Source: Antedon bifida
Taxonomy: Eukaryota > Echinodermata > Crinoidea > Comatulida > Antedonidae
Direction of reading: 5' to 3'
Assembly: GCA_963402885.1 (NCBI GenBank)
Contig: OY727103.1
Coordinates: forward strand, 7,354,501-7,418,500
Length of the DNA: 64,000 nt
The notes below the pieces were generated by a model. That model made no database searches. It was not told the DNA's origin and worked only from the letters and a program-made list of their open reading frames with translations. The position numbers and the translations under genes are program-made. Shown in pieces: positions 4,157 through 58,596 of this stretch (position 1 is its first letter; every line of letters starts with the position of its first letter).

Positions 4157-4179
4157 GTTAACCAGTGAAAACCTCATAC

Positions 4180-5905: not shown

Positions 5906-5909
5906 TCAA

Positions 5910-7075: not shown

Positions 7076-7145
7076 AAAGTACTTATTGTCAGTCTTAATT
7101 ATGTATTAAATTAATTTTAATGAATATAGCGTTATTATTAACAAA

Positions 7146-7361: not shown

Positions 7362-10300
7362 ATGGCCTATTGGAAATTCGTCTGTTTTTTTCTTTCTGTA
7401 CTTCTACATTTATGTAAAGGTATGTTATTAATATATTTTAGTATTTACCAATGCTGTAAATGTTAAGGCTGGTATCTCTGACTAATTGCTTCTACATTTA
7501 GGAAGAAACTTTATGTTTTTTGTTCTCTTTTGTGGCGTAAACACCACTTTTATTCACATTCATTATCTTTCATGTCAACAAAACATTATCACATTTGTGT
7601 TAATTCCTAATGTCATCATAATTGTATAAACTTTATCAGTAACATTTTTAAAACATTGTATTCCGTATTACCTCCTTTTTAAAATAATTCCCTTATATGT
7701 TGCTATAATACTCTTCCAAAAGAATTTTAAAAAGTTAATACAAAGACGTTTGGTCTAAATAACCAAAGTAGGTTACTGTGTATTGTACGAATTTATTATG
7801 AATTACTTCGTTACTGTTATTAATATTATTTTAAACAATGTTTTCCGGAATTGAGTATTATAACATTATTAAACATTTTTAATAATCACAATTTATTTAA
7901 AACGTTGAAATTATAATTTTCCTTGTGGTTCTTGTTATTCGTTCACACACTGGTGACGGTAAATTATTCAAAAATATCGTTGACTAGATATGATATTAAA
8001 TAATTTTTCCTAAAGTATTATACAATCTACCACATGTACGCATATCGAGCAAAAAATATTGGCACGTCACGAGCCGCGCAAGGCACGTCGTGAAGACGAA
8101 ATATTGAAAGGTGATTTTCAGGCGTGAAAGACACTTAATATAATAATAATAATAATAAACAGTATTTATATAGCGCCTAATGGATCAGTGACCCCTCTAG
8201 ATGCTTTACATTAGACCTTAACTAATGGTAATAAACTATCCCCCGCCGGACACCATTCCGGTATTTCTTAGTATTTCTTATTTCTTAGACTTAAGGCGTA
8301 ACTACAGTTATTTTTATATAAATTTTGATAGTGTGAGTAAAAGATACTTACATGAAACCTATTAATATAACTATAGAGTGAATGCTTTTAATAATTTCCT
8401 AGAGATCGGCCTTTAAGTTTTTCTTTTTATTTATATTTTCCTTTTAGGTAGACAGGGTAACCCTTCTAATTAAACCCACAGGCAAGTTAGTATCCAGATG
8501 CACTCTAAAATATTTTATTATACTTAACTAAGTTAAACACTTAAAATATAACTTTCAATATAAAAAAATAATAAGATAGAATATATTTTTTTAGGTTAAA
8601 TTTAAAGGAATTAATATTGAAAGACTCTTTTAAAACAGAAGGTAATTCAAAATGTAAATGTGTCGCAAAATAACTAAAAGAATGGCGGAAACATGTTAAA
8701 ATGTTAATTTAGGTACCTGTAAGTCGCCTCTTGCCTCCTCTGCAAAATCGCTTTTTTGTGTGCATAGGTGTTGTATTTGATTTGTTCATGTGTTTATTTA
8801 TGAATCAGCAAATAATTTTTTCCCAATAATTAATGTTTAATAGAATAATAATAATTAGAGTGTTAATGTATAATTTTGTTATACTTATTGTTTATTTAGG
8901 TTTTATATTCAAGTAAACGTTTTTTTTAATATTTTAATAATACAGGTGATGTTATGTTTGTTGTCAACAAGGATCCTCCTGGAATATATATGACAAACAT
9001 TTCCAGTGACAATGCAAATTTGATTTTAGCATCAGTTATTCATAATGTCGAATTAACTAAACCTAGCGCTATCGATTATGATACCAGCACATTAACCCTG
9101 TATTGGTCTGATGACAGCAAGCGCACCATTGAACGGTTTTCAATTGTCACTAACCAACATGAAGTGTTTGTGTCTTTAGGGTCAACTTCTGGTAATATTC
9201 TATTTATTTTTACATGTTTTATTAGGAAAAATAAGCATCATGATATTTTGTAGCATTTGTTTCGCTAACTTTTAAATCAAATTTTATGCAAAGGAAATGT
9301 TTTTTTTTGTTAATGTTTATTTTTTTTAAAGAATAGGTAGCAAGTTTATAATTACGTTGGATTTACATCGCCTAAATAGACCAGCTCTTCAGAGTTATTT
9401 CAAGGTTGAATCAAGCGTTGTTGAACTAAACAACGTTGTTGTTTAAAAATCATAATTCAATAATGTCGTTAAGAATTTACGTTTTACATCTTTTTGCATA
9501 GGTGATGTTATAAGTATAAGCACCATTTATCAATTCCTCTGATTTTTTCAGAAATAGTAGATAAAGAGGTCGGATTTAGGATTCCTGAATCGAAAGATTT
9601 CAGTAAGCGTTGATGACAGATGTGAGGTTAGGAAAGATAGCGCCTAGTCCAAAAGAGTAGCAGAAGTTAAACCATTTTACAGCATATTTATAATTTGTAA
9701 TTTGTATAGGCCAATCTTTTATATCCCGCTTTCGCAAACAAAAATCTTTCTTTTGTCGTTTCCTCTGCATAGAAGAACTAAACAACCTGGGATAATAAAG
9801 GGTATAATAGAATCAATAAACACTAGGAATCAAAACACCGAACATAATTAATAATAAAACCTACAGAAATAAACGTACAAGATTATTATGAATATCATAA
9901 ACAGAATTTTACAAAAAATTCAACCAAACAGTAAAAGTAACTGTTAAAAACAAAATGGAATACAATCAATATATCATGCTCTGTAAAAATAAAGACATTA
10001 TCTAATTATTTTATAAATAAATTGCCACGAAATCTAATTACTACTTTACTGCAATAGGATCAATGTTCTTGTAAAACCCAAGCTATCTCTTGCAATGTCA
10101 CTCACTAATATCTAAGGAATCCCACTAAAACTTGTTTGTACCTAAATCTTCAAAAGAGATTCTTGAAATTATAATCTAAAGTAGTGCCGGTCTTGACGAT
10201 GTTGAACTACAATAATAAAAGAAATTGAATCTTTTTTACAAGAATACAAGGATACAAGGAAACTTTATTCATCTCAACTTGGGAAATTGTGTTGCTGTCT

Positions 10301-12777
10301 TATAACAATGCCGTAAAGAAAAGAGAAATGATAGGCCTAATACATAAGTGTGATAATAATAATAATAATAACAATAATAGTGTTTCGTAAAATATTCCCC
10401 TATCTTTGATATCTTCCTTGTAGTCTCGTATGCCCCTAGGGAGGAAGGAGAGACGATGGCGTTCAGTGGATTCCCGTGGCGGTCCACTACGTTCCATAAG
10501 GCAGTCGGCAATGTCCGAGTTAAGGGGATGACTAACATCATTCCATATCACTCTAAACATATTGCGCAACCGTTCATGATAGACCGAGTCCACCACAGGT
10601 AATTCACATCCAACCATCCTCCCTGCCCTCCTCACCAACCTGTCTATTCTATCCCTATCTCTCCTACCAACATTCCCACCCCAACCCAACAGACAATATC
10701 CCCAAACAGAACTAATCACTGACAAACAAAACGAAGGATGTGGCTATCGACATTAAATGAGCGTAGTTTACGTGAATTTAGTTTCTCTATAATGTGATCT
10801 ATGTGTTCCCCCCAGGACAGATATTCATCAAAAACCATCCCAGATACTTAAAACTAGATACCCTCTCTACTTTAGCATTATTTATTAGCACGTCTTTAGC
10901 CTTGACCCTCTTTTTAGTCCGGAAATCTATCACCACCTCTTTGGTTTTTGAGACGTTAAATTCCAAATAATTTAAATCACAATATTCTACAAATCGTTTA
11001 ATTTCTGAAATATACTGAGAATCATCATCCCCCCTGATTAACCCAATGAGAGCAGTGTCGTCAGCGAATTTAATAGCAGGACAGGAGGTTTGGTCATTAG
11101 ATCTAAAGTCAGTGGTATAGACTGAAAATAGAAATGGCGCCAACACCGTACCCTGGGGTGCGCCTGTGTTTGTACAAATTAAATCCGAGATGGCTCCTGT
11201 ACTTAACTTAACATATTGACTACGATTTACAAGAAAATTATATATAAAGAATATTAGTGAGCGCGGGAGTTCCATATTAAACAATTTATTAATTAGAAGG
11301 TGAGGTTGGATAGTGTTGAAGGCGGAGTTAAAGTCATAATACATGATTCTCACAGAGTGACCGAATTTAGCTACGCCTTCAAGATGAGAGTATATCTTTT
11401 TGAGTTTAAGCAATATAGCATTTCAGTATTTCGTGAACTTCTGTACGCGAATTGCAGTGGGTCTAAATATTGGGAGATTAACGGCTTTAACTTATTGAGG
11501 ACAATCCTTTCACACACTTTCATAACAACAGAGGCCTCCGAACGCATAACTTAAATAATGTTCCCATCATAAAATGTCCAATTTTTCATAAAATAAATAA
11601 TCGTCGGTTCAATTATTACACTGCCTTGCTTTTTTAAGATACGCCTTAAATTGTATTATATAACATACCTTTATCTTTCTACATGAGCAAGCATTACGAA
11701 CAACTATAGTTAAAATAGCGACTTGAAAAACGTTAACCAAAGGGTATCACAACTCCTGAATCATGAACTACCGTACACTGTTATGCAAATTAGTAGAATG
11801 TTGACGTCATCCATTAAAGCAAACGTTTTCGTCCTCGTGCTAAAGTTTCGTAAAATATAATACATAACCCTAGTAGAGGGTTGAGCATCATTTGAAATGT
11901 GTTAAAACAGTTATAGTCTATAGCATATCAAGTAAATTAGATGGTTGAGATTGCAGTAATTGTTTAATTGTCATCATTATTTAAGATGTGCGTGGTTTAG
12001 CCGTTGATGGAGCTGGAAAAAAACTTTATTGGACAGAATATGGCAAACAACTAATTGAAGTAATCAATCTGGATGGAACAAACAGAACAATTCTGTTTGA
12101 CACAGAATTAGGAAATCCATTTGCAATCGAGATAGATACAGCTAACGGGTATGTCACTCTCTCTTATCGTACATCTATCTATTGTTTTCACTCATCCAAA
12201 GAACTGTGTCACCACATCTTGGATAACTGTATATTATCAATGCATTTAAACCATACATCTAAATTCGTTCAAATTTAATAATAGGAATTTAAAAAAAGGA
12301 ATGATTGCCTTTACGTTTAAAACATTCAATGAATTGAATTTCAATAATAACATCTCACCTTAAGCAGTTTGTAAGTTTCTATACTTTTCATTCACACCCG
12401 ATTCTCTGCACCGTATCGTACAATCTGTCCAGCATAGGCCAATTCTATATTAATACATTGCCGCATGTTTCACATGGCGCCTGTACTACATTATGGTTAA
12501 AGTTAGGTTAGGCTTATACAGGTGTCACATGTGATACAGATATAACACTGTATTGAACCACTTGTACTGTATCATAATCTAAATTAGTAAAAGACTGGCC
12601 GTAATAAAGTAATAAATCTGGATTCTTATTAGTTACGTTTGATATATCTAACGGGTAATGTCACCTTCTATACACAGTAAACCTCTTATCACGTTGGAGG
12701 GAGATCAACTATGAACTTCACAGTTCCATTCTTTTGATTCTTCCTTTTGATTAGTAAGCAAAAACGTAACAACAACA

Positions 12778-12863
<86 letters not shown>

Positions 12864-15800
12864 AATAATAATGCATTAATACCACTCAATAAAGGAAGTA
12901 ATAAAACATTTCTTTCACATATTCGTAAATCATTAATAACTAATCTGTTTCAGTAATTTCGTAAGTTTCAATATATTTTTTTTCCGTAGAAGGGATGTGA
13001 ACTACTTGTAACAGAACGTTAATGTAGTAACATATATTATACTTATACTTAGATACCTGTACTGGACTGATAAAGACAACGATGTGATAGAGCGAGCGAA
13101 GTTAAATGACTTGAGTACAAGGACCGTGTTAGTAACAAACGTATCAAATGCAAAAGGACTTGTTTTAGCAGTTCCCGGTAAGTTACTCTTGACCATGAAT
13201 GCATGTAAGTTATAAAATCGTATACCGATTAGACATGGCGATGGTTGATAGGTGCTATAGATGTTACCAAATATATTCTTTACACGTGAAGCTATTGGTA
13301 CCAAATAATCCTTTTGAAGTACATTTTAACATAATTAAAAAGTATAATTATATTAAGGATAAGCACGCATATGATCCATGACATTTCAAGTTGTCAGAAC
13401 CTATACAATATTCACAATTTAAATGATGTAGAAAGTGCTTGGGTAATGTTCCGCGACTCTTTTTTAAATATAAGTAATAAACATGCGCCTTTAACAAATA
13501 CTAGAGTAAAAAATAGAATGATGTTCTCCCTGGATGACACCTGAAATAATTAAGTTAATGTACAAAAGAGATTATATTAAAAGTAAGGTAAATGTAAATC
13601 CAGAATTAAAATCTGAATATAGAAGACTCAGAAACTTGGTAAACACTAAAATAAAAAAGGCCAAGGCCAAGCTTTACCACTGTTAATATAAAATACAAAA
13701 ATAATCCCAAAAAAATGTGGAACGAGTTAAATAAAGTAACTGGGAAAAAGAAATGCAATACAAGCACTAATGTTGATTGCAATAACTTTAATGAGTATTT
13801 TACCAACATCGGAGTTGAAATGGCAAATTCATTTGATAACAGGCCAGGTGTATCTAGATGGAATAATCCACCATGTATATCTTCTTTTAATTTTACAAAT
13901 ATTGATGCAAATACTATCAAAACGAGATTGTACAAATTACCTGAAAAAAACCTCGATGTATTAGAGTTTCATAGTAAGCTTTTGAGGTTGGCGGCGCCAT
14001 ATATCTCATAGCCATTATGTCACATTGTAAACCTTTCCCTTATGTCTGGGCGTATCCCAGGTGACTGGAAAGTTGCAAGGACGACCCCAATCTATAAGGG
14101 AAAGGGTAGTAAAGAGAGTATGAACAACTACAGATCAAAATCTGTTGTCGGTCATATTGCAAACATTATTGAGAGAGTTGTTCAGGAACAAATAATTACC
14201 TTTCTTGAGTCTTATGATTTAATTAATGTGGACCAATTTGCGTTTTAAAAAAAACATTCCACTGTAACGTGCTTACACAGAGTGGTTGATGATTGGTTGA
14301 AAAGTTTTAATGATTCTGAACTGATCAGCGCTTGTTTCTTGGATATATCTAAATGTTTTGATACGATCGATCACTCAATTCTTGTATATAAACTTGATAA
14401 ATACGGTTTCAGTGAAAATGTTTTAAATTGGTTTGTAAATTATCTGAAAAACAGAAAACAGTTTGTATACTGCAACAATAGAAAATCTAAACTGAGAGAT
14501 ATTAACATTGGTGTTCCGTAAGGAAGTGTCCTAGGGCCAATCCTTTTTCTTCTATTTAGGCCTATTAATGATATTTCGCAGTCTGTTATAAAAGGAACTT
14601 GCAGCATTTTTGCTGATGATGTTGTTGTATACTAATGGTAATTCAACTAAGTCTGTAAACGATTCTCTACAAATAATCATGAATAATGTTAGTGAATGGT
14701 ATAATAGAAACCACCTCCCAAACAATACAGACAAAACTAAGGTCATGTTACTCAGAAACAGTCGTTCAGTAGCTAATAACAACTGGATATTAAAATTGGG
14801 CCCACCAACATTGAACAAGTTGATAGTATAAGATACCTGGGAGTTATTATAGATGAAATGTTAACGTGGAAACAGAATACCCAGTCTATCAGTAAATATA
14901 TTGGGTATAAAATTACAATGTTGAGTAAAATGGCGGGATGTCTAAATAAATCATTATTAGAAACGTTGTTTTTGAGTACCATACAACCTTGTAGTGACTA
15001 TGCGATAACTGTTTGGGGAAATATCTCTGAGCAAAACAAGAATATCTTGAAGCGTCTTCATAGTAGAGCGGCTCGCATTGTTACCCAAAATTTTGATTTT
15101 GTTGACGTGAGGGGTGATAACATAATTCAGGATCTTTCCTGGAAAACATTTGAAGAGAGAAGAGATTTTTATCTAACTAGTCTAATGTATAAATGTATCC
15201 ACGGCCTTAACTTGCGCCAACCAGATTGACAAATGAAATTGAACTAATTGGGAATGTACACACCCATTTAACGCGGCGTGGAGTAGAAAACTTAAATATT
15301 GTTATACCTCATTATACCCGTAGCAAAATGGATTCGTCTTTTAAAGTTGCAGGCTGAAAAATATGGAATGACTTACCAGCAGATATAAAACATTCACCCA
15401 CGATTATGTCCTTTAAAGCTAGATACAGATCTCATTTCTTTTTATAACATTTAACTTCCAGTTTATATTTGTTGTTGCTATTTCTACTTGATTGTGTATA
15501 ATCCTGTATAAATATGTTGTTAAATAAAATGTGTAGAGTCGGCGTCTTACTTTACTTCCTGACATTAGCGACTTTGCTTTCACACGACGCGCCAAGCGTC
15601 TTTCGAGTAAAAAGGACATTTTGCGCACGTTCAGAAACACATGAGCATGTGCAGAATGATCTTTTTACTCGTTAGGCACAAAGTATTTTGCTCAGACCCC
15701 ATAATCAAAGCTATGCTTACAGTTGAGTACACTTTCCTTTTTCTCAATGAGTTATAACATTTTGTTTACATTTTATATTGTGATTCATTTTCTTGTGAAC

Positions 15801-18800
15801 TTTTTTTTAATTGAACTAAATGCATGCTAACCCATTTTTGTGCGCCTACTAAAAAGTCACGTACTTGAAAATCTCGTTTTGTTAAAACTTAATACGCATA
15901 TTCAAGTACAGTATTCAATCGTATACTCTCGTTTTTGTTTTTCATTATTCTCAAGATGGAAAGATGTATTGGAGTGATTACAGCAGTGGGTTAATTGAGG
16001 AAGCTAACCTTAACGGAACTAACAGAAGAACGATTATAACTAGGCTGAATCGCCCAAGGAAGATAGATATTTATGGAAACTATCTTTACTGGACAGACTT
16101 GAACGGTGGTATATATCGAGGTGATAGAACCACTGGAGTATCATCAAAGGAAAGTAACGATAGTCGACTTAATAATCCAAAAGGCTTATATATTTTGAAA
16201 AGTAAATATTCTATTTTAATTTTCAAATGAAATTGCTAACTCAAATTGTGGTTAAAGATGCAAATGGCACACGTTTCATTAGCGTTGCTTTTATATTTCT
16301 ATTTAGTATTGGCCTAGTAGGCCTATAATAGTAAAGTATATTTGTTGTCAACAAGCCCATTTTTAATTTACCTTGTTTAAGTACCTACACTCACAATTAA
16401 GTCAAATGTGCTGGTAAAAACACTCTTTAGAACAAAACAATGTAAGGCGAAATTGGACGCGATGTTCACTCAGTTCCCGAAATAATTTTAAATCGACGAA
16501 ATATTTTCGTGTTGTGATTCAAAAGCATACTGGAGGATTGGAGAGTAGGCCCTAACATATTAAACTATATTATTGGGCGAAAGTTGTTTAATTTTTGGCG
16601 AACAAGGGTTGCATCGAGTACATTTTGATAAAAGACGCATTCCATACATATTGTATATGGTCTATTTAAAGATGCATTGTCTCCCAAAAACATGAAAAAT
16701 GTATTAAATCAGACTTTGAATATGTTATTTTGTAGTTTTAGTTAGTTTAGTTAATCACTTCAATAGAAAAAAAACGTTAAAAAATCATGTTTTCACTTAT
16801 AAAATGACAAAATAAATGGTAAAATTCAACCAAAAATCCAAAAATGAATCCTAAATGGACCTATATGGCGATCATTTTTGTTGTCTTTAAACGGGTAGAA
16901 ATCTGAAAAAAAGTCGATTATAATAATTTAAGCGGCTAGCTTTGAATACCGACATGCATTGCACGCAGATTGTTTCGTTTTGCTTTTCAATGATAAACCC
17001 AAAATAGAGGCGATTGTGAATAAATTTACCAGATCTTCCCCGTTCTGTAGTAATGGATTCTGCCAAAAAATGAAAGACAACGCGAGGATGTATTTTTCTA
17101 ATGGGAACCAAGCTTTAAATTAATAATGAATAATTGTTTAAAACAATATGATTCAGATTCAAACAACTGTATTTAGGCCTACACATTATTGCAAACAAAC
17201 TGTTAGGTTGGACACAACGAAATAATTATGCAAACAAAATTAATCAATATCCTTTAGATGAGGAATTTAACTATTATAAAACGATATAAATGTAATTGAT
17301 AAATAATTAAATAATGTGATAGCAGACCATCGTATAGATAAATTTATAATACACCTGATTGTATTCTTGCAATTTTATTAGTCTATTATGCCTCGTTAAA
17401 TAATGCAGTCAGTCTTTCAACGAATAAACATTAATTATTTGTATAATAATTGTTCTTAATTTTATTGTTATTATCTAATTGTTTATTGATATCGGCAACT
17501 GATACTTTCAGCTCCCATCATCAGCGTGGGTGCGGGCGCAACCGTAGAAGATTCGACAACCTACTACGGAATTGGAGATGAAGTAAAGACAGACTTCTTG
17601 GTAAACACTACTGGGTCAGGAACAGGCTTGAAAGTCACCCTTACAGCTGAGAATATGGAGGTAATTTACTAAAAAGGAACACATATATTGTATATATACA
17701 GTGTTTGTGACCATGCCATTAATTTATATATCAAATGTCTATATATAATCTTTTGGCCGTAATGTTTTCCACTTCGTTGTTTTTTTTTTGGTGGTACTGT
17801 ATTCATGCAATACTTGCATACAGCATCGGAAATAACGATTATTAGTCTTTCAAAATGTGCACAGTCGTTGACATGTGCGTCGATGATTCTCAGTTGAGAA
17901 TGCATATGAAGGGTATTATGAGTTTATTATAGAAAAAGTAGAATGGGAAAACTCCGTAGTCGCATAATGGGTGAAATTCGCGTATACGTCACATGTGTAC
18001 GTGTAGTAGCGAGACGGTATTTCCGCGCGTGATCCGGATTTTCTATGCGTTTTGTATGGATTGCATTTTACACGTTAACTATACCTTTGAGATTTTTAAA
18101 TTAAAATTAACAATTACAATTGTTCAAAATATATTTCTATATCATATTTCATCACTGAAGTTCTGAGTTCTTAAAAAAAAGTTTAAATAAAACGACAAAG
18201 AACTTAAATCAAACGTAAGCCTACTGCGAACAATGGATCACATGTCTGTCCTACTGACGGACGTAAAATGAATTTGGCCAAATGAAACAAGCTACGAATT
18301 CAAACATATTCGTTATACGTATGTAGACATGGATAAATATACGTATACGTTAGTTTATCAAAGAAATAACACACGCGGAACATAATGTATATAGTACTAC
18401 TAAATACCGATTGGGTGTAATTATTACTCGATTCTCAGTGCTGTATCTTCGAGATATAGTTTCCAAGTATCAGGAATATTTGGTTATGCTATGATACCAG
18501 GAGAAACATGTGAAACACATGTGAAACACATGTGATGTTGTATTAGCCACTATTTCTATGATACTTGTCGGCAAATCTAGATACAGCACCGATAATCGGG
18601 CGTTATTTATTATAGTAACATCTTTTTCAGTTCGACCTGTCTGCAGATCCTTTTATATGGACTTTAACAGGAAACGGAAATACCGACTCAACCACGACGG
18701 TATGATTTTGATTTGTATTTTTTCAAAATATTGGTTATAATAAATAGTGTGACGTGTGATTTTAGCAGTGAAATAATTAAATATAACTGTGCTGTGATTT

Positions 18801-21800
18801 TAGGCTACTAAAGCAAGCAAATACACTCAACTTATTCAGTCCCGCAGTACTAAAACCACTACAGAGACCCAATGTCCAGTACCAGTACTCCTCTAGAGTA
18901 AATACTGTTTATAGTACAGGGTACTCCTATGCATCAAGCATGTTTCCACACATCAAGTCACCTAACTAGCCTATTAGGTTAGGTTAGGTCATCCATGCAT
19001 TTCAACCAGCTGATTTACATGCAAATGAGCAAACTGGACAGAGTATTCAAGCGTGAGACCCCTTTCACAACAACTGTAATGATATGTCAAACAATAGATA
19101 TAGGTCTTTTCTCTATAACATAAATGTTGGTTGGGCGTGCGGAAAAAATGAAGTAGAAGATCCGACTTTGCCGACTTTAATCTCAGAGATTCTATTCACA
19201 TTACCGCTTAAGATATTTACCTATTTCTGGGGTTCTTCTTCATTTGACAGATCTGCTGTGTTTTGTTTTTAAGTCAGATTTGCTAAGAGATGTTGTTACG
19301 GATTCATTGTATTTTTCAGAGCAACTTCACGGTCACCCTGGTCTCCGCATCAGAGATTACTTTGTCTTTTAGTAATAACAGTTTATTTTCATCGGACATT
19401 CAATTTGAAGGGACTATCAATTCCACTGTTAATGGTATTTTAACCGATTCTTTTGTTTGTTTTTTTTTTGCCAAAATAATAATTTACACTGAAAGCTGTT
19501 GAACCCAAATGAGTTTTACCACATCCTTGTTCATATAAAACTAATGTCGTTAGCGTATCATATTTATTATCAAATTGATATTCTTTTGTAAAAGTATTTT
19601 TTTTTTATGAATTAATGTGCAGACCCCAACCAACCATATCACATTATAACAGTTCCTAACCGTATACATTGCTTTGTTGTACAAAATCATAATTACGTCA
19701 GCAAGTGCTAACAAACACTATGCTTTCGTAGTTTATGGCATGTATTTGACAAGAAATATAACACCAATACATCTTTGAAGTGAACATTATAGTTTTAATG
19801 TCTTCCTAATTTGCATTATTTTAGATATACAATAATAATCTATATTTATTGTTGTTATATCAATTTCTTTGTAGCCGATGTAAAACCTGGAGTTATTTTA
19901 CGTGTAACTATAACTGCTGAATTAACTGACATATTCAATGGCTTAGTCACCGCAGAAGGAGTCTCAAACGCAGTTTTTAGTAAATTACCGCATTTCGTGA
20001 TGAACATTACTGAGCAGTCTGCAGATGGTAATGTTTATGTTAACGTTGGTCAAAAGGTGCATATGAACCTTATTGTTGAGTTTCCAAAAGGTACCGCTGA
20101 TCCGACAATTGAAGTCACACTACCATACAACTTCACGACTAACAAGACAAGCGAGCAGTGGAGTATCAACAAAGTGTCCGTTTCATATGTCAGTGACTCC
20201 TTATCCTGTACGTATTCGACAGAGTTCTGCTACTACGCTCCTCAGACGCAGTACATTGCTAACGATGATGATTTCGGCATCCTTAAAGACTGGTCGGTGA
20301 CACAGTTCGACGGATTTATTGAAGTGAACGACCCAGATGCTTCCAATAACATCTTGGCGTTAGAAATTGAAGTTGTCCTAGACGATACAGACGCGGTGGT
20401 TAATGGATCAGAGCACTGGTTAGGAATTGGAATGCAGATTGGTGACGGAGCTCACATTTGGGTTGGAGAAGTACCAGTTTACACGCTGATTAATGAAGTT
20501 TCGAAGCCTAAGATGTCGTTTAAGATAACATACGAAACTGATTCATTTTATAAAGGGTAAGTTTGGTAAAGTTACTAAATGTTTTGGTAAATTTTGATCA
20601 AAAACCAAACGAAAGAAACTGCAAAAGTGCCCTGTTTTCGAAGTATTTTCCGCAATTATTAATTACAAATAATGTGGAAAAAGGCTTTATCTGCAATTTG
20701 ACCCTCAAAATAAAAAAGTAATAATTGAATATTATGTCAGATATTTTTCAATAATGTACTTTTGAAATATATTCATTTGAAAATAAAATATTACATGAAC
20801 TTTTGTAATGAAAAGCTTTTTGTAGATAAGCCCTTTTCTCAAAGTACGGAAGAGATGTTCACATAATCACTCTTGACATCCTATAAGTATTGGGATATAG
20901 TGATTGTGGTACCACTCTAATTTGATTTCGATAATAGTATTTGTTGGTTGTTATTTTCAGTGATGATGTAATAATACTGATTAGTATTTGGCACGATGAC
21001 GATTCAACGGGAAAAGCAGTAGATGTAACTTTCACAATATTGAAGTCGAAAAATGTGCAATATATTAAACTTGAATCAGAATACACAGAGCTGTTGCAGT
21101 CACCAGCGGTAAACCCAAGCATGCCTGGACCATCTCCTGTTCGATTTAATGTAAGTTATTCTACAATCAACCAGATTCAATTATGTGTAGGGCCCACGAT
21201 CAGCTTGGTTAAAAAGGTTTGGAAGAGTTCTTTTAAGTATGTTAGGTATTTACCTACAGCGCTGATACATTTTGAAAGATTAGGAAACGGGTGGATGGCC
21301 AGTGTAGTACCTTCAGTAACAAGTTCAGAATACATTAATATACCTATTAATGAAGTGTAACGTATGTCTGCATCAGGATAACAAATTCCATCTTGGCTGG
21401 GTGCGATTTTTTCAGTCTTTAGATTTGTTATTAAAGGTTTACAATTATTACAGCCTTTATTTCGCTGGGTGGTGTGTTTAACTTTCTCTGTTTTAATGAC
21501 TTATAATATAAGTCGACAGGGGTTTTCTAAATGAAATCAAAGACAAGCGTAGTCACATTTCTCATGTATTTCACAGCTTGGAACCATTCAGATTGCCGCA
21601 AAACCAACTTTCCGTGTACGCCTAGGAATCGACAAAAACGGAAAAACTGCTCCGGGCACTCGTCGCTTTGTTGGCGTGGCTGATTTGTTGTGGTTCTCGA
21701 CTGTTAATAGCGCTAAAGTTCTTTCTTGCACAAAATCTTTTCAATTTATGTATTCGGACAGACCAGATGTTGGTGGTGGTGGTAAGTGTACGATAGTGTG

Positions 21801-27259: not shown

Positions 27260-27540
27260 TCAGAAAAATATATATATCTTTTCCGATCCAGTTTGGTCAA
27301 CTATTATGTGACATTAAAATGGCATATTCAACAAAAAATATAAACAAGAAATATTTCTTACAAAAAACGCTGCTCTCTTGTTGACGTAACAGTTTTAAAG
27401 ATATATTGTCCCCCTGAAAAAATATATTTTTATTTCAAATTTGTTTTTGAATGTGCCATTTTATTGTCACATAATAGTTATTCACATTAACCAAACAATT
27501 ATTTACCTGAAAAAAATGTAATTTCAACAAAAAATACTTA
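27260..27540. repeat. Inverted-repeat element with dispersed TTAAAGAT motif
   Basis: About 38-bp arms at 27296-27333 and 27447-27484 are inverted copies (CTATTATGTGACATTAAAATGG against its reverse complement with few mismatches). Between them is TTTTAAAGATATATTGTCCC, the motif shared with 16665, 27107 and 34292. It is probably a non-autonomous DNA transposon remnant. Confidence 0.55.
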
Positions 27541-28359: not shown

Positions 28360-29605
28360 TTATTTAGCTCCCATTAAGGTCTCACTGCCATGTACGTCCA
28401 ATGCGAGAAATTTGACGCCTCATCTGAACTGTCGCTTGTGATTGGTCAAACTTTAGCTACCCGTCTTTGCTTACACTTTTTGTTTGTTTTTTAAGTGCCA
28501 CGATCTTAAAGGCCCATTTACACTAAGGTGATAACGATCGACGAAAAAGATAAAAACGCATTTTTTATACTTAAAACAAAAAATTTTTAAAAAGTCTTCA
28601 TCCTAGAACTATAGGATTATCATCTATGCTGCCTTTGATGACAATAATATTTCCACACGTCCAATAAAATGACGTCATGATTAGTAAGAGCAATAATATC
28701 GTTACAATACAACGATTTTATTGTTTTTATTGATCATGACGTCATTTGATTAGATTAAAAAAAAATGTTTTTATCAAATACAGCATAAATGTTTTTCCTA
28801 TAGTTCTAGAACGAAAACCCTAATTTATTTTGTTTTATTAAAGAAAAATGTATGTTTACCTATTTATCGTCGATCGTTATCGCCTAGTGTAAATGGGCCT
28901 TAAATGTTAAAAATGGGCTGATCATTGAATAGAACGAAATAACCAGTTCTACGTCATACGAAATCAACTAATCAACTGGCAAGAGTGTACTTTTGTGATA
29001 ATGATGATTATGTTTTATGCCACTCTGCTCATTTAACACATTTCTATCTTTTCAACAGATGATGACAGTGGCCTGAAGTATAATGGAGTTTTGAAAATGA
29101 AAAAGGACTGCTGCTAAATCATAACATTTCAGCGGCCCGATTCTAAGTCATATTCAACTTTCGCAAATAGTATGCAACTATAGATTTCCGTCCTATTGTG
29201 GTTTTTAAATTCAATCGAAAATGTAACTTTGAAATTTATATAGAAAATATTTTCAATTCATGTTTAATTATTTTTTTCAAAATTCAATTTTGTTTTCACA
29301 TGAGTAAATCATTTTTTATTGTTCTTAAATATTTTGAATGTTTCGACCTAGTGTAGTACAGTACAATTAATGGCGATTCGGCCTAATAATGATAAAATAA
29401 TATTTTTTTGTCACGCATGACGTTTCATATATATAAAATCTTGTTACAAAATGCCTGGGCCACTGGTGGCGCTGCGTAAAAATAATAAGAATTATATCAA
29501 TTAAGAATATTTATATTTGTAGCTAGATTTTGTACATACTTAATATTTATTATTATTGTAATAATTACAGTACAGCTATTGTTATTTATCTTACGTATAC
29601 ACATT
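28360..29605 (+). pseudogene. Ghost gene: retained 3' end of a fourth array member
   Basis: From about 28360 the sequence matches gene 1 from intron 16 (about 24558) through the last exon and 3' flank. It includes the MITE (28510-28900) and an intact last exon at 29059-29117 encoding YDDSGLKYNGVLKMKKDCC and a stop. Immediately left of the junction is spacer that elsewhere sits about 100 bases before exon 1. The simplest reading is that a complete gene stood here and one deletion removed everything from just upstream of exon 1 to intron 16. It carries the MITE that gene 2 lacks, so it is closer to gene 1. A duplicative insertion of a gene 3' end is the alternative. Confidence 0.85.
28510..28900. 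mobile_element. 391-bp MITE in the ghost gene
   Basis: Same element, same length and same TAA flanks (28507-28509, 28901-28903) as 24708-25098, so it was inherited with the duplicated gene 3' end and is not an independent insertion. Confidence 0.88.
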
Positions 29606-33300: not shown

Positions 33301-33595
33301 AGGTATATTTAACGGTGGACTATTTTCATTACACCATGTCTCCGAGATACCAATGATATCAAACTGAAAATGTAGAGTTTCAATAAATTCCATGATAGCA
33401 TCCAGATTTTTTACGAGACTTCTTGCATTAAAGTGGATACTAGAAAAACTTTTTTGAATATCTACTGTTTTAAATTTACATGCAAATTGATCACAAAGAA
33501 AATAATTAGAAAGGTTTGTGCAGTTTTTGTAGAAATTTTGGTCAGGATCTAGATCAAAGTTTCCTGCAAAATTTGTAATGGACTCAAACTCAAAA
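30359..33595 (-). mobile_element. 3.2-kb LINE with endonuclease and RT, minus strand
   Basis: Most complete LINE in the window. Minus-strand order: a short N-terminal part, APE endonuclease (FDIIGISETWCNE, IMGDFNLDLLRY, IGDHLPIF) at 32800-33500, then RT (KITPVYKSGDKGDISNYRPI, QYGFRSKFSSSMAL, a GVPQG*LFGPLLFILYVNDI stretch near 31500, LYADDTNIF near 31430) and the C-terminal part (LTWKYHINELMTKISKIIG, YCNVVWGN) at 30610-31185. The 3' end has TTGAT-type repeats. AAATT flanks it at 30354-30358 and 33596-33600, a 5-bp target duplication; the uninterrupted site is seen at about 646-658. At least one in-frame stop and some frame shifts make it inactive. No other unit carries it, so it is a recent insertion. 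Confidence 0.92.
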
Positions 33596-34725
33596 AAATT
33601 GTTTATTTCAACTGTATCTTAGTTACAAGTAAACGCAATTTAACGCCAAAATAAAGTTGTCGAAAAACAGTCATTGTAGGCGTATTATCATATTATGTAC
33701 ATACATAATACACATACATGCGCGTGCATATTTTATTCTTTAACAACAAAACTGACATGGCTATAAAACATGAAGCTGTAGATGTTTATGTAAGCAAACA
33801 CCATAAAACTAGTACATGGCAAATTGCAGATTGCGACACCGAGGGCTTGTTATTATTTAATATTTTTGCCCATGAAGATAAATATAACTAAGAATAAAAT
33901 AATAATCAGCTTTTATGACGTCACCGATATATCGATTTCCCTGACAATCAATATACATGTTCTTTCTTTATATACTGTACCAATTTGGAAAACCTTTTCT
34001 GGACGCTGCAAACAAAATAACTTATATAGGCTACAAAGACAGGTTCCCAATACGACGCAACACAAAGAAATAAATAATGTGACCAATGACGACGCGTGGA
34101 TTTGAAATACCATCTCATGACCACTGATCCGGAGGTCGAACATGTTATTTCTCGAGTAACAAAACAACGTAGAGGCGCACAGTGGAGAAAGAAAGAGATG
34201 ATGCTGGAGATCATGGAATGAAGTTAGAAAAAGAACTGGTTGAAGAGAACATCTTGTAGCCTTATGGGACAATCGGTCCAAAAAGGATATTGTTAAAGAT
34301 GTATTGTCCCCCAAAAACCTGAAAAATAAAGACTAATAAAGCCATGTATATGGCCTTGTTTTTAACCTAGAAATTAAAAATCAAGTCACGAATCGTTTTT
34401 TTTCCCTATTGTACAAAAATATACATGCACGTACATATTTTAATCTTCTACAAAAACTGCCATGGCTAAAGAAATTGAAGATGTATCCTAGTCGAGGGAA
34501 CGCCATAGAATTAATGCTTGACAAAAATATATCGATTTTCCTGACAATTAATATGCATGGTCTGTAATCATATTATATTATATAATTAATATTAATTAAA
34601 TTATAATAACAAAGATATCTGGTCTTAAAGGTACTGTTTATTGTGCTTATGTGAATATAAAGTACTTATTGTCAGTCTTAATTATGTATTAAATTAATTT
34701 GAAAAATATAGCGTTATTAATAAAC

Positions 34726-34837
34726 AAATCGCAACAAGATAGCGTTAGTTATAATATTGCGACCGTGTGTTATACAGCATATTCGATTTTGACGACATAA
34801 TTGAACATTGTTTATTAACATTTTGAAGTTATAAAAA
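34726..34837 (+). promoter_or_regulatory. Conserved region upstream of gene 2
   Basis: Matches 7146-7225 of gene 1, containing GATAGCGTTAGTTATAATATTGCGACC. It runs without the GACC-rich insertion into TTATAAAAAATGG at the start codon. A promoter role is only inferred from conservation across units. Confidence 0.35.
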
Positions 34838-37800
34838 ATGGCCTGTTGGAAATTCGTCTGTTTTTTTCTTTCTGTACTTGTACACTCAAGTAAAGGTATG
34901 TTATTTTATATTGTATTTACCAATGCTGTAAATGTAAAGGATATCTCAGACTAACTGCTTCTACATTTAGGAAGAAACTTAATGTGTTTTTTTTCTCTTT
35001 TGTGGCGTAAACACCACTTTTATTCACATTCATTATCTTTCATGTCAACAAAACATTGTCACATTTTTGTTAATTCCTAATGTCATCATAATTGTATAAA
35101 CTTTATCAGTAACATTTTTAAAACATTGTATTCCGTATTACCTCCTTTTTAAAATAATTCCCTTATATGTGGCTATAATACTCTTCCAAAAGAATTTAAA
35201 AAAGTTAATACAAAGACGTTTGGCCTAAATAACCAAAGTAGGTTACTGTGTATTGTACGAATTTATTATGAATTACTTCGTTACTGTTATTAATATTATT
35301 TTAAACAATGTTTTCCGGAATTGAGTATTATAACATTATTAAACATTTTTAATAATCACAATTTATTTAAAACGTTGAAATTATAATTTTCTTTGTGGTT
35401 CTTGCTATTCGTTCACACACTGGTGACGGTAAATTAATCTAAAATATCGTTGACTAGATATGATATTAAATAATTTTTCCTAAAGTATTATACAATCTAC
35501 CACATGTACGCATATCGAAATATTGGCACGTCGCGAGCCGCGCAAGGCGCGTCGTGAAGACGAAATATTGAAAGGTGATTTTCAGGCGTGAAAGACACTT
35601 AATATAATAATAATAATAATAAACAGTATTTATATAGCGCCTAATGGATCAGTGACCCCTCTAGATGCTTTACATTAGACCTTAACTAATGGTAATAAAC
35701 TATCCCCCGCCGGACACCATTCCGGTATTTCTTAGTATTTCTTATTTCTTAGACTTAAGGCGTAACTACAGTTATTTTTATATATATTTTGATAGTGTGA
35801 GTAAAAGATACTTACATGAAACCTATTAATATAACTATAGAGTGAATGCTTTTAATAATTTCCTAGAGATCGGCCTTTAAGTTTTTCTTTTTATTTATAT
35901 TTTCCTTTTAGGTAGACAGGGTAACCCTTCTAATTAAACCCACAGGCAAGTTAGTATCCAGATGCACTCTAAAATATTTTATTATACTTAGCCTAACTAA
36001 GTTAAACACTTAAAATATAACTTTCAATATAAACAAATAATACGATAGAATATATTTTTTAGGTTAAATTTAAAGAAATTTTTTTAGAAGACTCTTTTAA
36101 AACAGATGGTAATTCAAAATGTAAATGTGTCGCAAAATAACTAAAAGAATGGCGGAAACATGTTAAAATGTTAATTTAGGTACCTGTAAGTCGCCTCTTG
36201 CCTCCTCTCTGCAAAATCGCTTTTTTGTGTGCATAGGTGTTGTATTTGATTTGTTCATGTGTCTATTTATGAATCAGCAAAGAATTTTATCCCAACAATT
36301 AATGTTTAATAGAATAATAATAATTAGTGTGTTAATGTATAATTTTGTTATATATATATATATATGTTTATTTAGGTTTTATGTTCAAGTAAAGTTTTTT
36401 TTAAATATTTTAATAATACAGGTGATGTTATGTTTGTAGTCAACAAGGAGGATCCTCCTGGAATATATATGACAAACATTTCCAGTGACAACGCAAGTTT
36501 GATTTTAGCAACAGTTATTCAGAATGTCGGATTAACTGAACCCTACACTGTCGAGTATGATACCAGCACATTAACAGTGTATTGGTCTGATGTCAGCAAG
36601 TACACCATTGAACGGTTTTCACTTGTTACTAACCAACATGAAGTGTTTGTGTCTTTGGGATCAAATTCTCGTAATATTCTATTCATTTTTTACATGTTTT
36701 ATTAGGAAAAATAAGCATCATGATATTTTGTAGCATTTGTTTCGCTAACTTTTAAATCAAATAATTTCGTTGGATTTACATCGCCTAAATAGACCAGCTC
36801 TTCAGAGTTATTTCAAGGTTGAATCAAGCGTTGTTGAACTAAACAACAATGTTGTTTAATAATCATAATTAAATAGGCCTAATATCGTTAAGAATTTACG
36901 TTTTACATCTTTTTGCATAGGTGATGTTATAAGTATAAGCACCATTTATCAATTCCTCTGATTTTTTCAGAAATTGTAGATAACGAGGTCGGATTTAGGA
37001 TTCCTGAATCGAAAGATTTCAGTAAGCGTTGATGACAGATGTGAGGTTAGGAAAGATAGCGCCTAGTCCAAAAGAGTAGTAGAAGTTAAACCATTTTACA
37101 GCATATTTATAATTTGTAATTTGTATAGGCCAATCTTTTATATCCCGCTTTCGCAAACAAAAATCTTTCTTTTGTCGTTTCCTCTGTATAGAAGAACTAA
37201 ACAACCTGGGATAATGAAGGGTATAATAGAATCAATAAACACTAGGAATCAAAACACCGAACATAATTAATTTTTACAAAAAAATTCAACTAAACAGTAA
37301 AAGTAACTGTTAAAAACAAAATGGAATACAATCAATATATCATGCTCTGTAAAAATAAAGACATTATCTAATTATTTTGTATAAGTAAAATAAAGTATAA
37401 ATAAATAAATTGCCACGAAATCTAATTACTACTTCTCTGCAATAGGATCAATGTTCTTGTAAAACCCAAGCTATCTCTTGCAATGTCACTCACTAATATC
37501 TAAGGAATCCCACTAAAACTTGTTTGTACCTAAATCTGCAAAAGATATTCTTGAAATTTATAATCTAAAATAGTGCCGGCCTTGACGATGTTGAACTACA
37601 ATAAAAGAAATTGAATCTTTTTTAGGCTTCCGAACGCATAACGTATATAATGTTCCCATCATAAAATGTCCAACTTTCCATAAAATAAATTATCGTACGG
37701 TTCAATTATTACACTGCCTTGCTTTTTTTCTTTCTACGCGAGCAAGCATTACGAACAACTATAGTTAGTTGCGTCGTGAACCTTATTTCTGAAAAATAGC

Positions 37801-40800
37801 GACTTGAAAAACGTTAACCAAAGGGTATCGCAACTCCTGAATCATGAACTACCGTACACTGTTATGCAAATTAGTAGAATGTTGACGTCATCCGTTAAAC
37901 GTTTTCGTTTCGTAAAATATAATACATAACCCTAGTATAGGGTTGAGCATAATTTGAAATGTGTTAACACAGTGTTAGTCTTTAGCATATAAAGTAAATT
38001 ACATAGGTTGAGATTGCAGTAATTGTTTAATTGTCATCATTATTTAAGGTGTGCGTGGTTTAGCCGTTGATGGAGCTGAAAAAAAACTTTATTGGACAGA
38101 TGTTAAAAAAGTCCGAATCGAAGTAATCAATCTGGATGGAACAAACAGAACAATTCTGTTTGACACAGGATTACAGTGGCCATTTGCAATTGAGATAGAT
38201 ACAGCTAACGGGTATGTCACTCTCTCTTAACGTACATCTATCTATTTGTTGTTCACTCATCATCCAAAAGAGATGAACTGTGTGATCACATCTCGGGTGA
38301 ACTTGTATTCTGTTATTATTAATGCATTTAAACCATACATTTAAATTCGTTAAAATGTAATAATATGAATTTTAAAAAAAAGAATGATTGCCTTTACGTT
38401 TAAAACATTCAATGAATTGAATTTCATTAATAACATCTCAACTAAAGCAGTTTTGTAAGTTTCTATACTTTTCATTCACACCTGATTATCTGCACCGTAT
38501 CGTACAATCTGTCCAGCATAGGCCAATTCTGTAATTACATTGCCGCATGTTTCACATGGCGTCTGTACTATGCTATGGTTAAAGTTAGGGTAGGCTTATA
38601 CAGGTGTCACATGTGATACAGATATAACAATGTATTGAACCACTTGTTCTGTATCATAATCTAAATTAGTAAAAGACTGGCCGTAATAAAGTAATAAATC
38701 TGGATTCTTATTAGTTACGTTTGATATATCTAACGGGTAAAGTCACCTTCTATACACAGTAAACCTCTTATTAATACGTTGGAGGGAGATCAACTATGAA
38801 CTTCACAGTTCCATTCTTTTGATTCTTCCTTTTGATTAGTAAGCAAAAACGTAATAATAATAGTAATAATAATAATAATATTAATAATGCATTAATACCA
38901 CTCAATAAAGGAAGTAATAAAACATTTCTTTCACATATTCGTAAATCATTAATAACTAATCTGTTTCAGTAATTTCGTAAGTTTCAATATATTGTTTTTC
39001 CGTAGAAGGGATGTGAACTACTTGTAACAGAATGTTAATGTAGTAACATATATTATCTTATACTTAGATACCTGTACTGGACTGATACAATCAACGATGT
39101 GATAGAGCGAGCGAAGTTAAATGACTTGAGTACAAGGACCGTGTTAGTAACAAGCGTACCAGAGGCAAAAGGACTTGTTTTAGCAGTTCCCGGTAAGTTA
39201 CTCTTGACCATGAATGTATGTAAGTTATAAAATCGTATACCGATGTTGTGGTTGTTTTCACATTTGTGGGCGTTTTTACATTTGTGGGCTCAACACGGTG
39301 GTTGATAGGTGCTATAGATGTTACAAAATATATTTTGGGTAGTAAAGAGAGTATGAAAAACTACAGACCAATTTCTGTTGTCGGTCATATTGCAAAAATT
39401 ATTGAGAGAGTTGTTCAGGAACAAATAATTACCTTTCTTGAATCTTATGATTTAATTAATGTGGACCAATTTGCGTTTTTAAAAAAATATTCCACTGTAA
39501 CATGCTTACACAGAGTGGTTGATGATTGGTTGGAAAGTTTTAATGATTCTGAACTGATGGCGCTTGTTTCTTGGATATATCTAAATGTTTTGATACGATC
39601 GATCACTCAATTCTTGTATATAAACTTGATAAATACGGTTTCAGTGAAAATGTTTTAAATTGGTTTGTAAATTATCTGAAAAACAGAAAACAGTTTGTAT
39701 ACTGCAACAATAGAAAATCTAAACTGAGAGATATTAACATTGGTGTTCCGTAAGGAAGTGTCCTAGGGCCAATCCTTTTTCTTCTATGTATTAATGATAT
39801 TTCGCAGTCTGTTATAAAAGGAACTTGCAGCATTTTTGCTGATGATGTTGTTGTATACTACTGGTAATTCAACTAAGTCTGTAAACGATTCTCTACAAAT
39901 AATCATGAATAATGTTAGTGAATGGTATAATAGAAACCACCTCTCAATCAATACAGACAAAACTAAGGTCATGTTACTCAGAAACAGTCGTTCAGTAGCT
40001 AATAACAACTGGATATTGAAATTGGGCCCACCAAAATTGAACAAGTTGATAGTATAAGATATCTGGGAGTTATTATAGATTAAATGTTAACGTGGAAACA
40101 GAATACCCAGTCTATTAGTAAATATATTGGGTATAAAATTACAATGTTGAGTAAAATGGCGGGATGTCTAAATAAATCATTATTAGAAACGTTGTTTTTG
40201 AGTACCATACAACCTTGTAGTGACTATGCGAAAACTGTTTGGGGAAATACCTCTGAGCAAAACAAGAATATCTTGAAGCGTCTTCATAGTAGAGCGGCTC
40301 GCATTGTTATCCACAATTTTGATTTTGTTGACGTGAGGGGTGATAACATAATTCAGGATCTTTCCTGGAAAACATTTGAAGAGAGAAGAGATTTTCATCT
40401 AACTAGTCTAATGTATAAATCTATCCACGGCCTTAACTTGCGCCAACCCGATTGACAAATGAAATTGAACTAATTGGGAATGTACACACCCATTTAACGC
40501 GGCGTGGAGTAGAAAACTTAAATATTGTTATACCTCATTATACCCGTAGCAAAATGGATTCGTCTTTTAAAGTTGCAGTCTGAAAAATATGGAATGACTT
40601 ACCAGCAGATATAAAACATTCACCCACGATTATGTCCTTTAAAGCTAGATACAGATCTCATTTCTTTTCATAACATTTAACTTCCAGTTTATATTTGTTG
40701 TTGCTATTTCTACTTGATTGTGTATAATCCTGTATAAATATGTTGTTAAATAAAAAATATATAAATAAATAAAATGTAGTAGAGTCGGCGTCTTACTTTA

Positions 40801-43800
40801 CTTCCTGACATTAGCGACTTTGCGTTCACACGACGCGCCAAGCGTCTTTCGAGTAAAAAGAACATTTTGCGCACGTTCAGAAACACACGAGCATGTGCAG
40901 AATGATCTTTTTACTCGTTAGGCACAAAGTATGTTGCTCAGACCCCATAATCAAAGCTATGCTTACAGTTGAGTACACGTTCCTTTTTCTCAATGAGTTA
41001 TAACATTTTGTTTACATTGTATATTGTGATTCATTTTCTTTTGAACTTTTTTTTAATTGAACTAAATGCATGCTAACCCATTTTTGTGCGCCTACTAAAA
41101 AGTGACGTACTTGAAAATCTCGTTTTGTTAAAACTTACTACGCATATTCAAGTACAGTATTCAATCGTATATTCTCATTTTTGTTTTTCATTATTCTCAA
41201 GATGGAAAGATGTATTGGTGTGATTACAGCAGTAGGTTAATTGAGGAAGCTAACCTCGACGGAACTAACAGAAGAACGATTATAACTGGACTGAATCACC
41301 CAAGGGGGATAGATATTTATGGAAACTATCTTTACTGGACAGACTTGAACGGTGGTATATATCGAGGTGATAGAACCACTGGAGTATCATCACAACAAAG
41401 TAGCGATAGTCGACTTAATCAACCAAGAGGATTATATATTTTGAAAAGTAAATATTCTATTTTAATATTCAAATGAAATTGCTAACTGAAATTGTAGTTA
41501 AAGATGCAAATGGCACACGTTCCATTAGCGTTGCTTTTATATTTCTATTTCAGTATAGGCCTAGTATAATAGTAAACTTTATTTGTGCTCAACAAGCTCA
41601 TTTTTAATTTACCTTTTTAAAGTACCTACATCCACAATTAGGTCAAATGTGCTAGTAAAAACACTCTTTAGAACAAAACAAGGTAAGACGAAATTGGACG
41701 CGATGTTCACTCAGTTCCCGAAATAATTTTAAATCGACGAAATATTTTCGTGTTGTGATTCATAAGCATAGTGAAGGATTGGAGAGTAACATATTAAACT
41801 TTGACATGATAGAATTAAGATATGTTTACCTGATTACAATATTAGGCCTAATGGGCGAAAGTTGCTTAATTTTTAGGCGAACAAGAGTTCCATCGAGTAC
41901 ATTTTGATAAAAAACGCATTCCCTACATATTGTGTATGGTTTATTTTTTTTAATGAACCATAAATGGGCCTATTATTGTCATTATTTTTGTTGTCTTTAA
42001 ACGGGTAAAAATCTGAAAAAAAGAAGTCGATTATAACAATTTAAGCGGCTAGCTTTCAATACCGACATGCATTGCGCGCAGATTGTCTCATTTTGCTTCA
42101 ATAATAAACCCAAAATAGAGACGATTGTGAATAAATTTACCGGATCTTCCCCATTCTGTAGTAATGGATTGTGCCAAAAAATGAAAGACAACGAGAGGAT
42201 GTATTTTTATAATGGGAACCAAGCTTTAAATTAATAATGAATAATTGTTAATATGATTCAGATTCAAACAACTGTATTTAGGCCTACACATTATTGCCAA
42301 CAAACTATTAGGTTGGACACAAAGAAATAATTATGCAAACAAAATTAATCAATATCCTTTAGATGAGGCATTTAACTATTAAAAAACGATATGAAATATA
42401 ATTGATTGCAAATAATTAAAATAATCTTAAATAGCAGACCATCGTATAGATAAATTTATAATACACCGGATTGTATTCTTGCAATTTTATTTGTCAATTT
42501 TGCCTCGTTAAATAGTGCAGTCAATTTTTCAACGCATAAACATTAATGTATAATAATTGTTCTTAATTTTATAGTTATTATCTAATTTACGTATACTTTC
42601 AGCTCCCATCATCGATGCGGGCGCAACCGTAGAAGATTCGACAATCTACTACGGAATTGGAGATGAAGTAAAGACGGATTTCTTGGTAAGCACTACTGGG
42701 TCAGGAACAGGCTTGAAAGTCACCCTTACAGCTGAGAATATGGAGGTAATTAACTAAAAAGGAACACATATATTGTATATATACAGTGTTTGTGACCATG
42801 CCATTAATTTATATATCAAATTTCTATATATTATAATCTTTTGGCCGTAATGTTTTCCACTTCGTTGTTTTTTTTGGTGGTACTGTATTCATGCAATACT
42901 TGCATACAGCATCGGAAATAACGATTATTAGTCTTTCAAAATTTGCACAGTCGTTGACATGTGTGTCGATGATTCTCAGTTAAGAATGCATATGAAGGGA
43001 TATAATGAGTTTATTATAGAATAAATAGAATGGGAAACTCCGTAGTCGCATAATGGGTGAAATTCGCGTATACGTCACATGTGTACGTGTAGTAGCGAGA
43101 CGGTAATTCCGCGCGTCATCCGGATTTTCTATGCGATTTGTATGGATTGCATTTTTACACGTTAACTATACCTTTGAGATTTAAATTAAAATTAACAATT
43201 ACAATTGTTGAAAATATATTTCTATATCATATTTCATCAGTGAACTAAACAAAATGTTGGCCAGACTATAAAATCCACCGTAAGCCTACTGCGAACAATT
43301 GATTCACAAAATGAATTTGGCCAAATGAAACAAGCTACGAATTCAAACACATATCCGTTATACGTGTGTCGACACTCGATCAATATACGTATACGTTAGT
43401 TTATCCAAGAAATAACACACGCGGAACATAATGTATATAGTACTAAATACCAGTTGGTGTAATTATTACCCAATTCTCAGTGCTGTATCTTCGAGATATA
43501 GTTTTCAAGTATAAAGTAGAGGAATATTTGGTTATGATATGATACCAGGAGAAACACGTGAAACACATGTGATGTTGTATTACCAACTATTCCTATGATA
43601 CTGGGCAAATACACAACACCGATAATCGGTTGGTACTTATAGTAACATCTTTTTCAGTTCGACCTGTCTTCAGATCCTTTTATATGGACTTTAACAGGAA
43701 ACGGAAATACCGACTCAACCATGACGGTATGATTTTGTTTTGTATTTTTTCAAAATATTGGTTAACGGGGTAATGTTGTGGTCATAATAAATAGTGTGAC

Positions 43801-58592: not shown

Positions 58593-58596
58593 AAAA

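Follow-up and report, generated by a model that had tools for sequence, protein, structure and literature searches.

Does a tandem gene family of the crinoid Antedon bifida hold most of its protein constant while selection drives one face of one domain to change from copy to copy? The question is raised by a stretch of 64,000 nucleotides of contig OY727103.1 (the window; C16:7354501-7418500 in our numbering, in an assembly of 315.6 Mb and 27 contigs), which carries two intact paralogues on the + strand, gene 1 (7362-25315) and gene 2 (34838-49999). Both have 17 exons, introns with GT-AG borders and open frames, and they code for proteins of 1110 and 1092 residues, respectively. A preliminary description had noticed that exons 2 to 5, which code for a beta-propeller, differ between the two genes mainly by amino acid replacement, and had proposed diversifying selection on a ligand-binding face. 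At the level of single sites this proposal is supported: the ratio of replacement to silent rates (dN/dS) is about 5.6 at the predicted ligand-contact codons against about 0.5 in the rest of the propeller, the position of the one face being taken from sequence register. The excess above 1 is confined to the putative binding surface that this register delimits.

The gene 1 protein matches PF00058 (YWTD, LDL-receptor class B) in three stretches with an E value of 3e-25 and 88.8 bits, against a cut-off of 21, and the sequence matches of the propeller in the PDB include LRP2, LRP4, LRP6, the LDL receptor and nidogen. By eye we recognised five YW-x-D/E strands plus an N-terminal FVVN strand, which would make six blades. 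The propeller exons lie at 8946..9191 (exon 2, residues 20-101), 11986..12148 (exon 3), 13053..13177 (exon 4) and 15956..16201 (exon 5) of gene 1, and at 36422..36670, 38049..38211, 39068..39192 and 41202..41447 of gene 2. The intervals first given for the two propellers (8946-16201 and 36422-41447) are correct. In gene 1, exons 3 and 5 match PF00058, and exon 2 matches LRP6 with no Pfam match when searched as an exon alone.

The first counts were reproduced. Exons 2 to 5 differ at 40 of 260 residues and at 11 purely silent codons, as had been estimated, which amounts to 14.8 silent and 54.2 replacement changes along Nei-Gojobori paths. Exon 4 has five replacements and no silent change, and the divergence of about 13% described for exon 3 corresponds to 21 of 163 bases in an ungapped alignment; an alignment that permits gaps masks some of these differences (9/156). 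Outside the propeller, the replacement level of about 4% was recovered as 36 of 811 residues (4.4%, exons 6-17), and exon 9 (19875-20556 in gene 1) is dominated by silent changes (15 vs 5 replacements), as had been said. The rest of the protein is constrained, with dN/dS between 0.26 and 0.33: exons 6-17 give a dN of 0.023, a dS of 0.088 and a ratio of 0.26 by Nei-Gojobori, and 0.325 by maximum likelihood, where twice the log-likelihood difference (2ΔlnL) from a ratio of 1 is 25.1. By exon, the ratio is 0.09 in exon 9 and 0.14 and 0.37 in exons 12 and 13, which code for a lectin domain. What did not hold was the expectation of an exon-wide ratio above 1 in exons 2-5: dN is 0.097 and dS 0.085 there, and the ratio (1.14 by Nei-Gojobori, Fisher p = 0.77; 1.108 by maximum likelihood, 2ΔlnL = 0.11 against 1) is not significantly above 1. 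As a test of selection, the exon-wide ratio (1.11-1.14) was set aside as too coarse.

The signal is found at a finer scale. The clustering of replacements after the YWTD motifs that had been pointed out is real, and a further concentration of them surrounds the P of the P-x-G-I element. In gene 1 the replacements in contact register within exon 2 fall on codons 9059-9061, 9065-9067, 9113-9115 and 9122-9124, and exon 3 has dense clusters at 12039-12053, after YWTE, and 12105-12116, before the P (38102-38116 and 38168-38179 in gene 2). These variable sites are in register with residues of LRP6 named in PMC7585440, which lists E51, D52, V70, E73, L95, E115 and N185 of the first propeller and R449, W465, W491, N493 and H534 of the second as touching ligands. 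The same paper, on LRP6 with sclerostin, gives E380, R382 and H404 of the second propeller as matching or clashing residues (PMC7585440). Most of these residues were placed by numbering on the LRP6 stretches, and H534 by counting. They define six registers (-2, -1 and +1 relative to the P of P-x-G-I, and +1, +2 and +4 after YWTD), which were extended by hand over six blades into a mask of 36 codons.

Between genes 1 and 2, 18 of the 36 codons in contact register are replaced, vs 22 of the 224 other propeller codons (Fisher p = 8e-8). The contact codons have a dN of 0.496 and a dS of 0.088 (ratio of about 5.6; Fisher test of dN vs dS, p = 0.018), and the other propeller codons a dN of 0.047 and a dS of 0.085 (ratio 0.55). 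When the mask was shifted circularly, only one of the 260 placements, the true position, reached 18 replacements. With a wider loop mask of 66 codons there were 24 replacements, with a dN of 0.298 and a dS of 0.087. If each codon is counted as changed once and the dS of the propeller serves as reference, 6.5 replaced contact codons are expected and 18 seen (p = 5e-6), and at an approximate upper limit of dS the same test gives p = 0.004.

Further copies in the assembly allowed site models to be fitted. Exon 2 was available from five other loci (L003-L007) and exon 3 from four; L001 is gene 1 itself, L002 is a third copy in the window equal to gene 1 in exons 2-3, and L008 has no match to exons 2-4, so that these rows were dropped. 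Locus L005 lacks most of exon 3 and was used in the pairwise table, the seven-gene run and the exon 2 run only. The models cover exons 2-3, with 136 of 139 codon columns kept after the columns missing in gene 1 were dropped. In the six-gene run, models with positively selected sites were strongly preferred (2ΔlnL of 52.4 for M8 vs M8a and 52.6 for M2a vs M1a), and dN/dS was 5.69 at contact codons and 0.48 elsewhere, a ratio of 1 at the contact codons being rejected (2ΔlnL 40.8). All seven sites with a posterior above 0.9 (60, 76, 102, 120, 123, 144 and 145) are among the 18 contact codons of these exons (hypergeometric p = 2e-7). With seven genes, 2ΔlnL for M8 vs M8a was 48.5 and six of six sites were contact sites. 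Single exons on their own trees gave the same picture, with 2ΔlnL of 7.0 for exon 2 (p = 0.008, two sites) and 27.1 for exon 3 (p = 2e-7, seven sites), all of the sites being in contact register. Across the seven copies, replacement is faster at contact than at other codons in 21 of 21 pairs, which are not independent of one another.

Could the surface loops of the propeller simply be free to vary, the rest being constrained, with no selection for change? Propeller loops are variable in general. This relaxation of constraint would suit both that variability and the exon-wide dN/dS of about 1, as well as the lack of any excess of charge changes at contact codons (10/18 vs 9/22 at the other codons, p = 0.53). 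A ratio above 1 is, however, beyond what relaxation can produce, and the contact codons exceed 1 in the pair and in the six genes alike. Their dN also lies above the divergence of introns 1-4 (p = 4e-25), and their replacements are more radical (mean BLOSUM62 score of -1.33 vs 0.23 elsewhere, p = 0.006). We consider relaxed constraint an improbable account of the pattern.

The introns were the yardstick of the first observation and deserve a closer look. In aligned sequence, introns 1-4 differ at 155 of 5595 bases (2.8%) and introns 6-16 at 210 of 4194 (5.0%), and divergence varies between introns from 1.4 to 17% (chi-square of 177 on 15 degrees of freedom); the high values are lower bounds because local alignment drops the worst parts (only 59 of about 297 bases of intron 14 were aligned). 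The intron before exon 3, described as nearly identical, differs at 39 of 1323 bases (2.9%) in its aligned part but is 2794 bases long in one gene and 1378 in the other, so that the description fits the aligned sequence only. Likewise, the propeller does change faster than its introns, with 54 of 595 replacement sites changed (9.1% vs 2.8%, Fisher p = 4e-12), but this is weaker evidence than it looks, because the introns appear partly homogenised by exchange and silent sites outrun them, in exons 6-17 against introns 5-16 (p = 0.007) as well as in the propeller (15/185, 8%, against introns 1-4; p = 3e-4). Part of the contrast is therefore not selection on the protein: it is real, and it mixes selection, exchange and other causes. 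Introns were rejected as a neutral clock, because they differ among themselves and change more slowly than silent sites. Two runs of identical columns, of 336 in intron 8 and 322 around exon 10, are longer than the 260 columns that mark the 99% level under random placement. Within 200 bp of the propeller exons the intron is somewhat more diverged than farther away (4.6% vs 2.9%, p = 0.002), and the contrast has p values of 0.05, 0.06 and 0.77 at 150, 100 and 50 bp; some flank bins (in L004, for instance, the one 300-200 bp ahead of exon 3) were excluded because misaligned indels seem to have inflated them. A hitchhiking gradient around the propeller exons was considered and is weak.

Exchange between copies is visible in the trees. 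For six genes the trees of intron 1 and exon 2 agree, while exon 3 rejects the exon 2 tree (approximately unbiased [AU] test, p = 6e-5) and exon 2 rejects that of exon 3 (AU 0.002). Within intron 2, the first 900 bases conflict with the trees of both exons 2 and 3 (AU 0.004 and 0.009). The last 500 bases, in which L004 has a suspiciously long branch, conflict with the tree of exon 2 (AU 0.001) and do not reject that of exon 3 (AU 0.19). Identities switch accordingly along the genes. L007, on contig C9, is 86% identical to gene 1 in exon 2 but 98.8% in exon 3, and L003, adjoining on C16, shows the opposite, with 96.7% in exon 2 and 87.7% in exon 3. Between gene 1 and L004, also on C9, intron 1 differs by 13% where it could be aligned (81/611) and intron 2 by 1.3% (31/2473). 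Contact-site motifs are shared among copies, GLQWP by gene 2, L003 and L006, and ELGNP by gene 1 and L007. Since the trees conflict and the identities switch, segments most likely moved between copies, including copies on different chromosomes.

Such exchange could by itself make exons look fast, if gene conversion had evened out the introns and brought in divergent exon patches with no selection for change. The uneven introns, the mutual rejection of the exon 2 and exon 3 trees, the silent sites that exceed the introns and the more diverged flanks would all fit. Patches would bring silent and replacement differences alike, yet the contact codons have few silent changes (1.8/22, vs 31.2/86 for replacements). 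Moreover, a null simulated with shuffled blocks because the exon trees conflict (15-codon blocks on leaf-permuted trees) reached a maximum 2ΔlnL of 8.94 in 80 replicates, against 52 in the data. As the sole cause, exchange has little probability in our view, and we regard it as real but additional to selection. A hypermutable stretch, or one prone to multi-nucleotide mutation, at the contact codons is a very remote explanation: two- or three-base differences are indeed found in 11 of the 18 replaced contact codons vs 3 of 22 elsewhere, but the silent rate is the same at contact codons as elsewhere (0.088 vs 0.085), the register recurs in blades encoded by four exons, and the excess over expectation remains when each codon is counted once.

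Several observations weigh against selection on the propeller face or limit its reach. Over the whole propeller, dN/dS is at parity and not above it, and over the 21 pairs of copies whole exons 2 and 3 give ratios of 0.24 to 1.47, above 1 in three. The site models cover six or seven copies in exons 2-3, and exons 4-5 are represented by one pair. The mask comes from an independent source, the paper on LRP6, but its transfer to six blades was made by hand and it is not blind, because the pattern had been noticed by eye before the mask was built. A tree-free test on three pairs gave a modest result (Fisher p between 0.005 and 0.04, depending on rounding). Multi-nucleotide mutation or patch transfer could be the source of the contact changes of two or three bases. 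Lastly, in the newest pair, gene 1 and the third copy, the sole difference in the exons compared (1-4) is a replacement of R by G in exon 4, off the contact register.

All this considered, we think it probable that these genes belong to a large family of secreted recognition proteins in which diversifying selection acts on the top face of the propeller while exchange reshuffles it. The computation shows that the genes are paralogues with intact frames and a mosaic history, that dN/dS exceeds 1 at particular sites, that these sites coincide with the contact register of LRP6 and that the protein is constrained elsewhere. We infer that the protein is secreted, that the register marks one face here as well, that this face binds a ligand and that the ligands vary. 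The protein would consist, in order, of a signal peptide, the YWTD beta-propeller, a conserved middle part, a C-type lectin domain and a cysteine-containing tail. The top face of the propeller, where LRP6-type partners dock, would be the recognition surface, and the copies would hold the scaffold and the rest of the protein while altering the residues predicted to touch the ligand. Propeller segments passing between copies of the same and of different chromosomes would generate mosaics of face variants, and the same exchange would keep many introns alike.

As to the role, analogy with other systems makes the recognition of varied non-self partners, that is, an immune function, a possibility to which we give somewhat less than an even chance; recognition of self, mate or gamete seems unlikely, if less so than the rivals discussed above. 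More tentatively still than the immune role, the family may be a large, still-diversifying recognition repertoire built on a YWTD propeller, in which tandem and interchromosomal exchange would recombine the predicted ligand-contact residues and the lectin-bearing constant part would stay fixed. In its logic, such a repertoire would be an invertebrate counterpart of other variable recognition systems. FREPs, VCBPs, 185/333, Alr and oyster bindin are multi-copy secreted or surface proteins in which change is focused on the binding surface, partly with exchange, and they are built on immunoglobulin, fibrinogen, F-lectin or repeat scaffolds. To our knowledge, none of the diversified recognition families of invertebrates uses a YWTD propeller, and a literature search with most subscription papers outside its scope found no family of this kind. 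The logic is thus known from other recognition families, and the YWTD scaffold appears to be new for such a role.

Work on YWTD propellers has treated them as conserved docking modules of lipoprotein and Wnt co-receptors. The genes described here share with LRP6, LRP2, LRP4 and nidogen the YWTD repeats (PF00058) and sequence matches along the whole propeller, but they form a tandem, fast-diverging family, and in them a C-type lectin domain follows the propeller instead of the LDL-A and EGF modules, of which the Pfam scan found none. Selection that alters this docking register from one copy to the next points to a system for recognising varying ligands, and gives a named set of residues for testing. 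The locus is also an example of a whole-exon dN/dS near 1 that masks strong selection at single sites, and of how a comparison of exons with introns can mislead where exchange keeps the introns alike. A parallel in the pattern of divergence is the array of snake small serum proteins, for which the accessible text of PMC6609765 reports ratios of replacement to silent divergence (KA/KS) of 1.739 and 1.536 between close copies and intron divergences (KN) of 0.065 and 0.049. Both arrays combine a ratio above 1 with little-diverged introns; the snake protein is small and unrelated, and, as far as that text goes, the contact-site test and the propeller belong to the present genes (PMC6609765).

Outside the propeller, exon 1 (7362..7419 in gene 1, 34838..34895 in gene 2) codes for a start judged by eye to resemble a signal peptide, and gene 1 has a further in-frame ATG at 7350. 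The family probably consists of secreted animal proteins. Exons 6-11 of gene 1 (17512..21781) form a middle part with no recognised fold and no Pfam match; exon 9 had no PDB sequence match up to an E value of 1, and its AlphaFold model was set aside for a mean pLDDT of 35. Exons 12-13 (22227..22835) code for the C-type lectin domain (PF00059, 2.1e-16, residues 772-886), and in a Pfam scan of the whole gene 1 protein only this family and PF00058 exceeded the cut-off. The calcium and sugar motifs of C-type lectin domains are EPN or QPD and WND. By eye neither is plain here, and the region reads KWLPNRPG and GDWDIMDC. Exon 9 and the lectin exons would be the constant part of the protein, possibly a glycan-binding one. 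Exons 14-17 (23215..25315, stop codon at 25313-25315) code for the cysteine-containing C-terminal part, which ends in KMKKDCC; gene 2 encodes its exons 6-17 at 42603..49999. Exon 14 differs in length by 45 bases (23215-23448 vs 48330-48518), with two DEGTPEPV repeats in gene 1 and none in gene 2.

Searched with exon 5, the genome gave 59 matches at E ≤ 1e-8, with 150 of 153 candidates scored, and 57 of the matches are free of stops; they are matches to an exon and not a count of genes. Six form a tandem cluster at C16:7.28-7.42 Mb, the interval in which the window lies, and a further group is on C15. On the + strand of the window, a partial 3' copy of another unit (exon 17 and flank, 28360..29473) lies between genes 1 and 2, and the third copy (exons 1-3 at 58597..63386, identical to those of gene 1) runs on past the window end, with about 99.9% identity to gene 1 across 11 kb. 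The likeness extends over the stretches 1-12762 and 52630-64000 (again about 99.9% over 11 kb): either a two-gene unit of 52.6 kb was duplicated very recently, or this is an effect of assembly or haplotype. A difference in transposon content shows that the two stretches are distinct. At 2546-3932 lies a 1387-base element whose terminal inverted repeats agree perfectly (30 of 30 bases compared) and which is flanked by a duplication of 7 bases, CTCGGTT; it is missing from the corresponding site of the third copy (about 55168) and looks like a fresh DNA transposon insertion. Reverse-transcriptase and endonuclease frames resembling those of long interspersed nuclear elements were recognised by eye in the list of open reading frames at 30610-33618 on the - strand, and introns 2 and 4 contain similar pieces, of which that in intron 2, at about 10238-11532, is in gene 1 and not in gene 2. 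Two arrays of a 21-base unit, at 51355-51637 (13.5 copies) and 51974-52149 (8.4 copies), are on mutually opposite strands.

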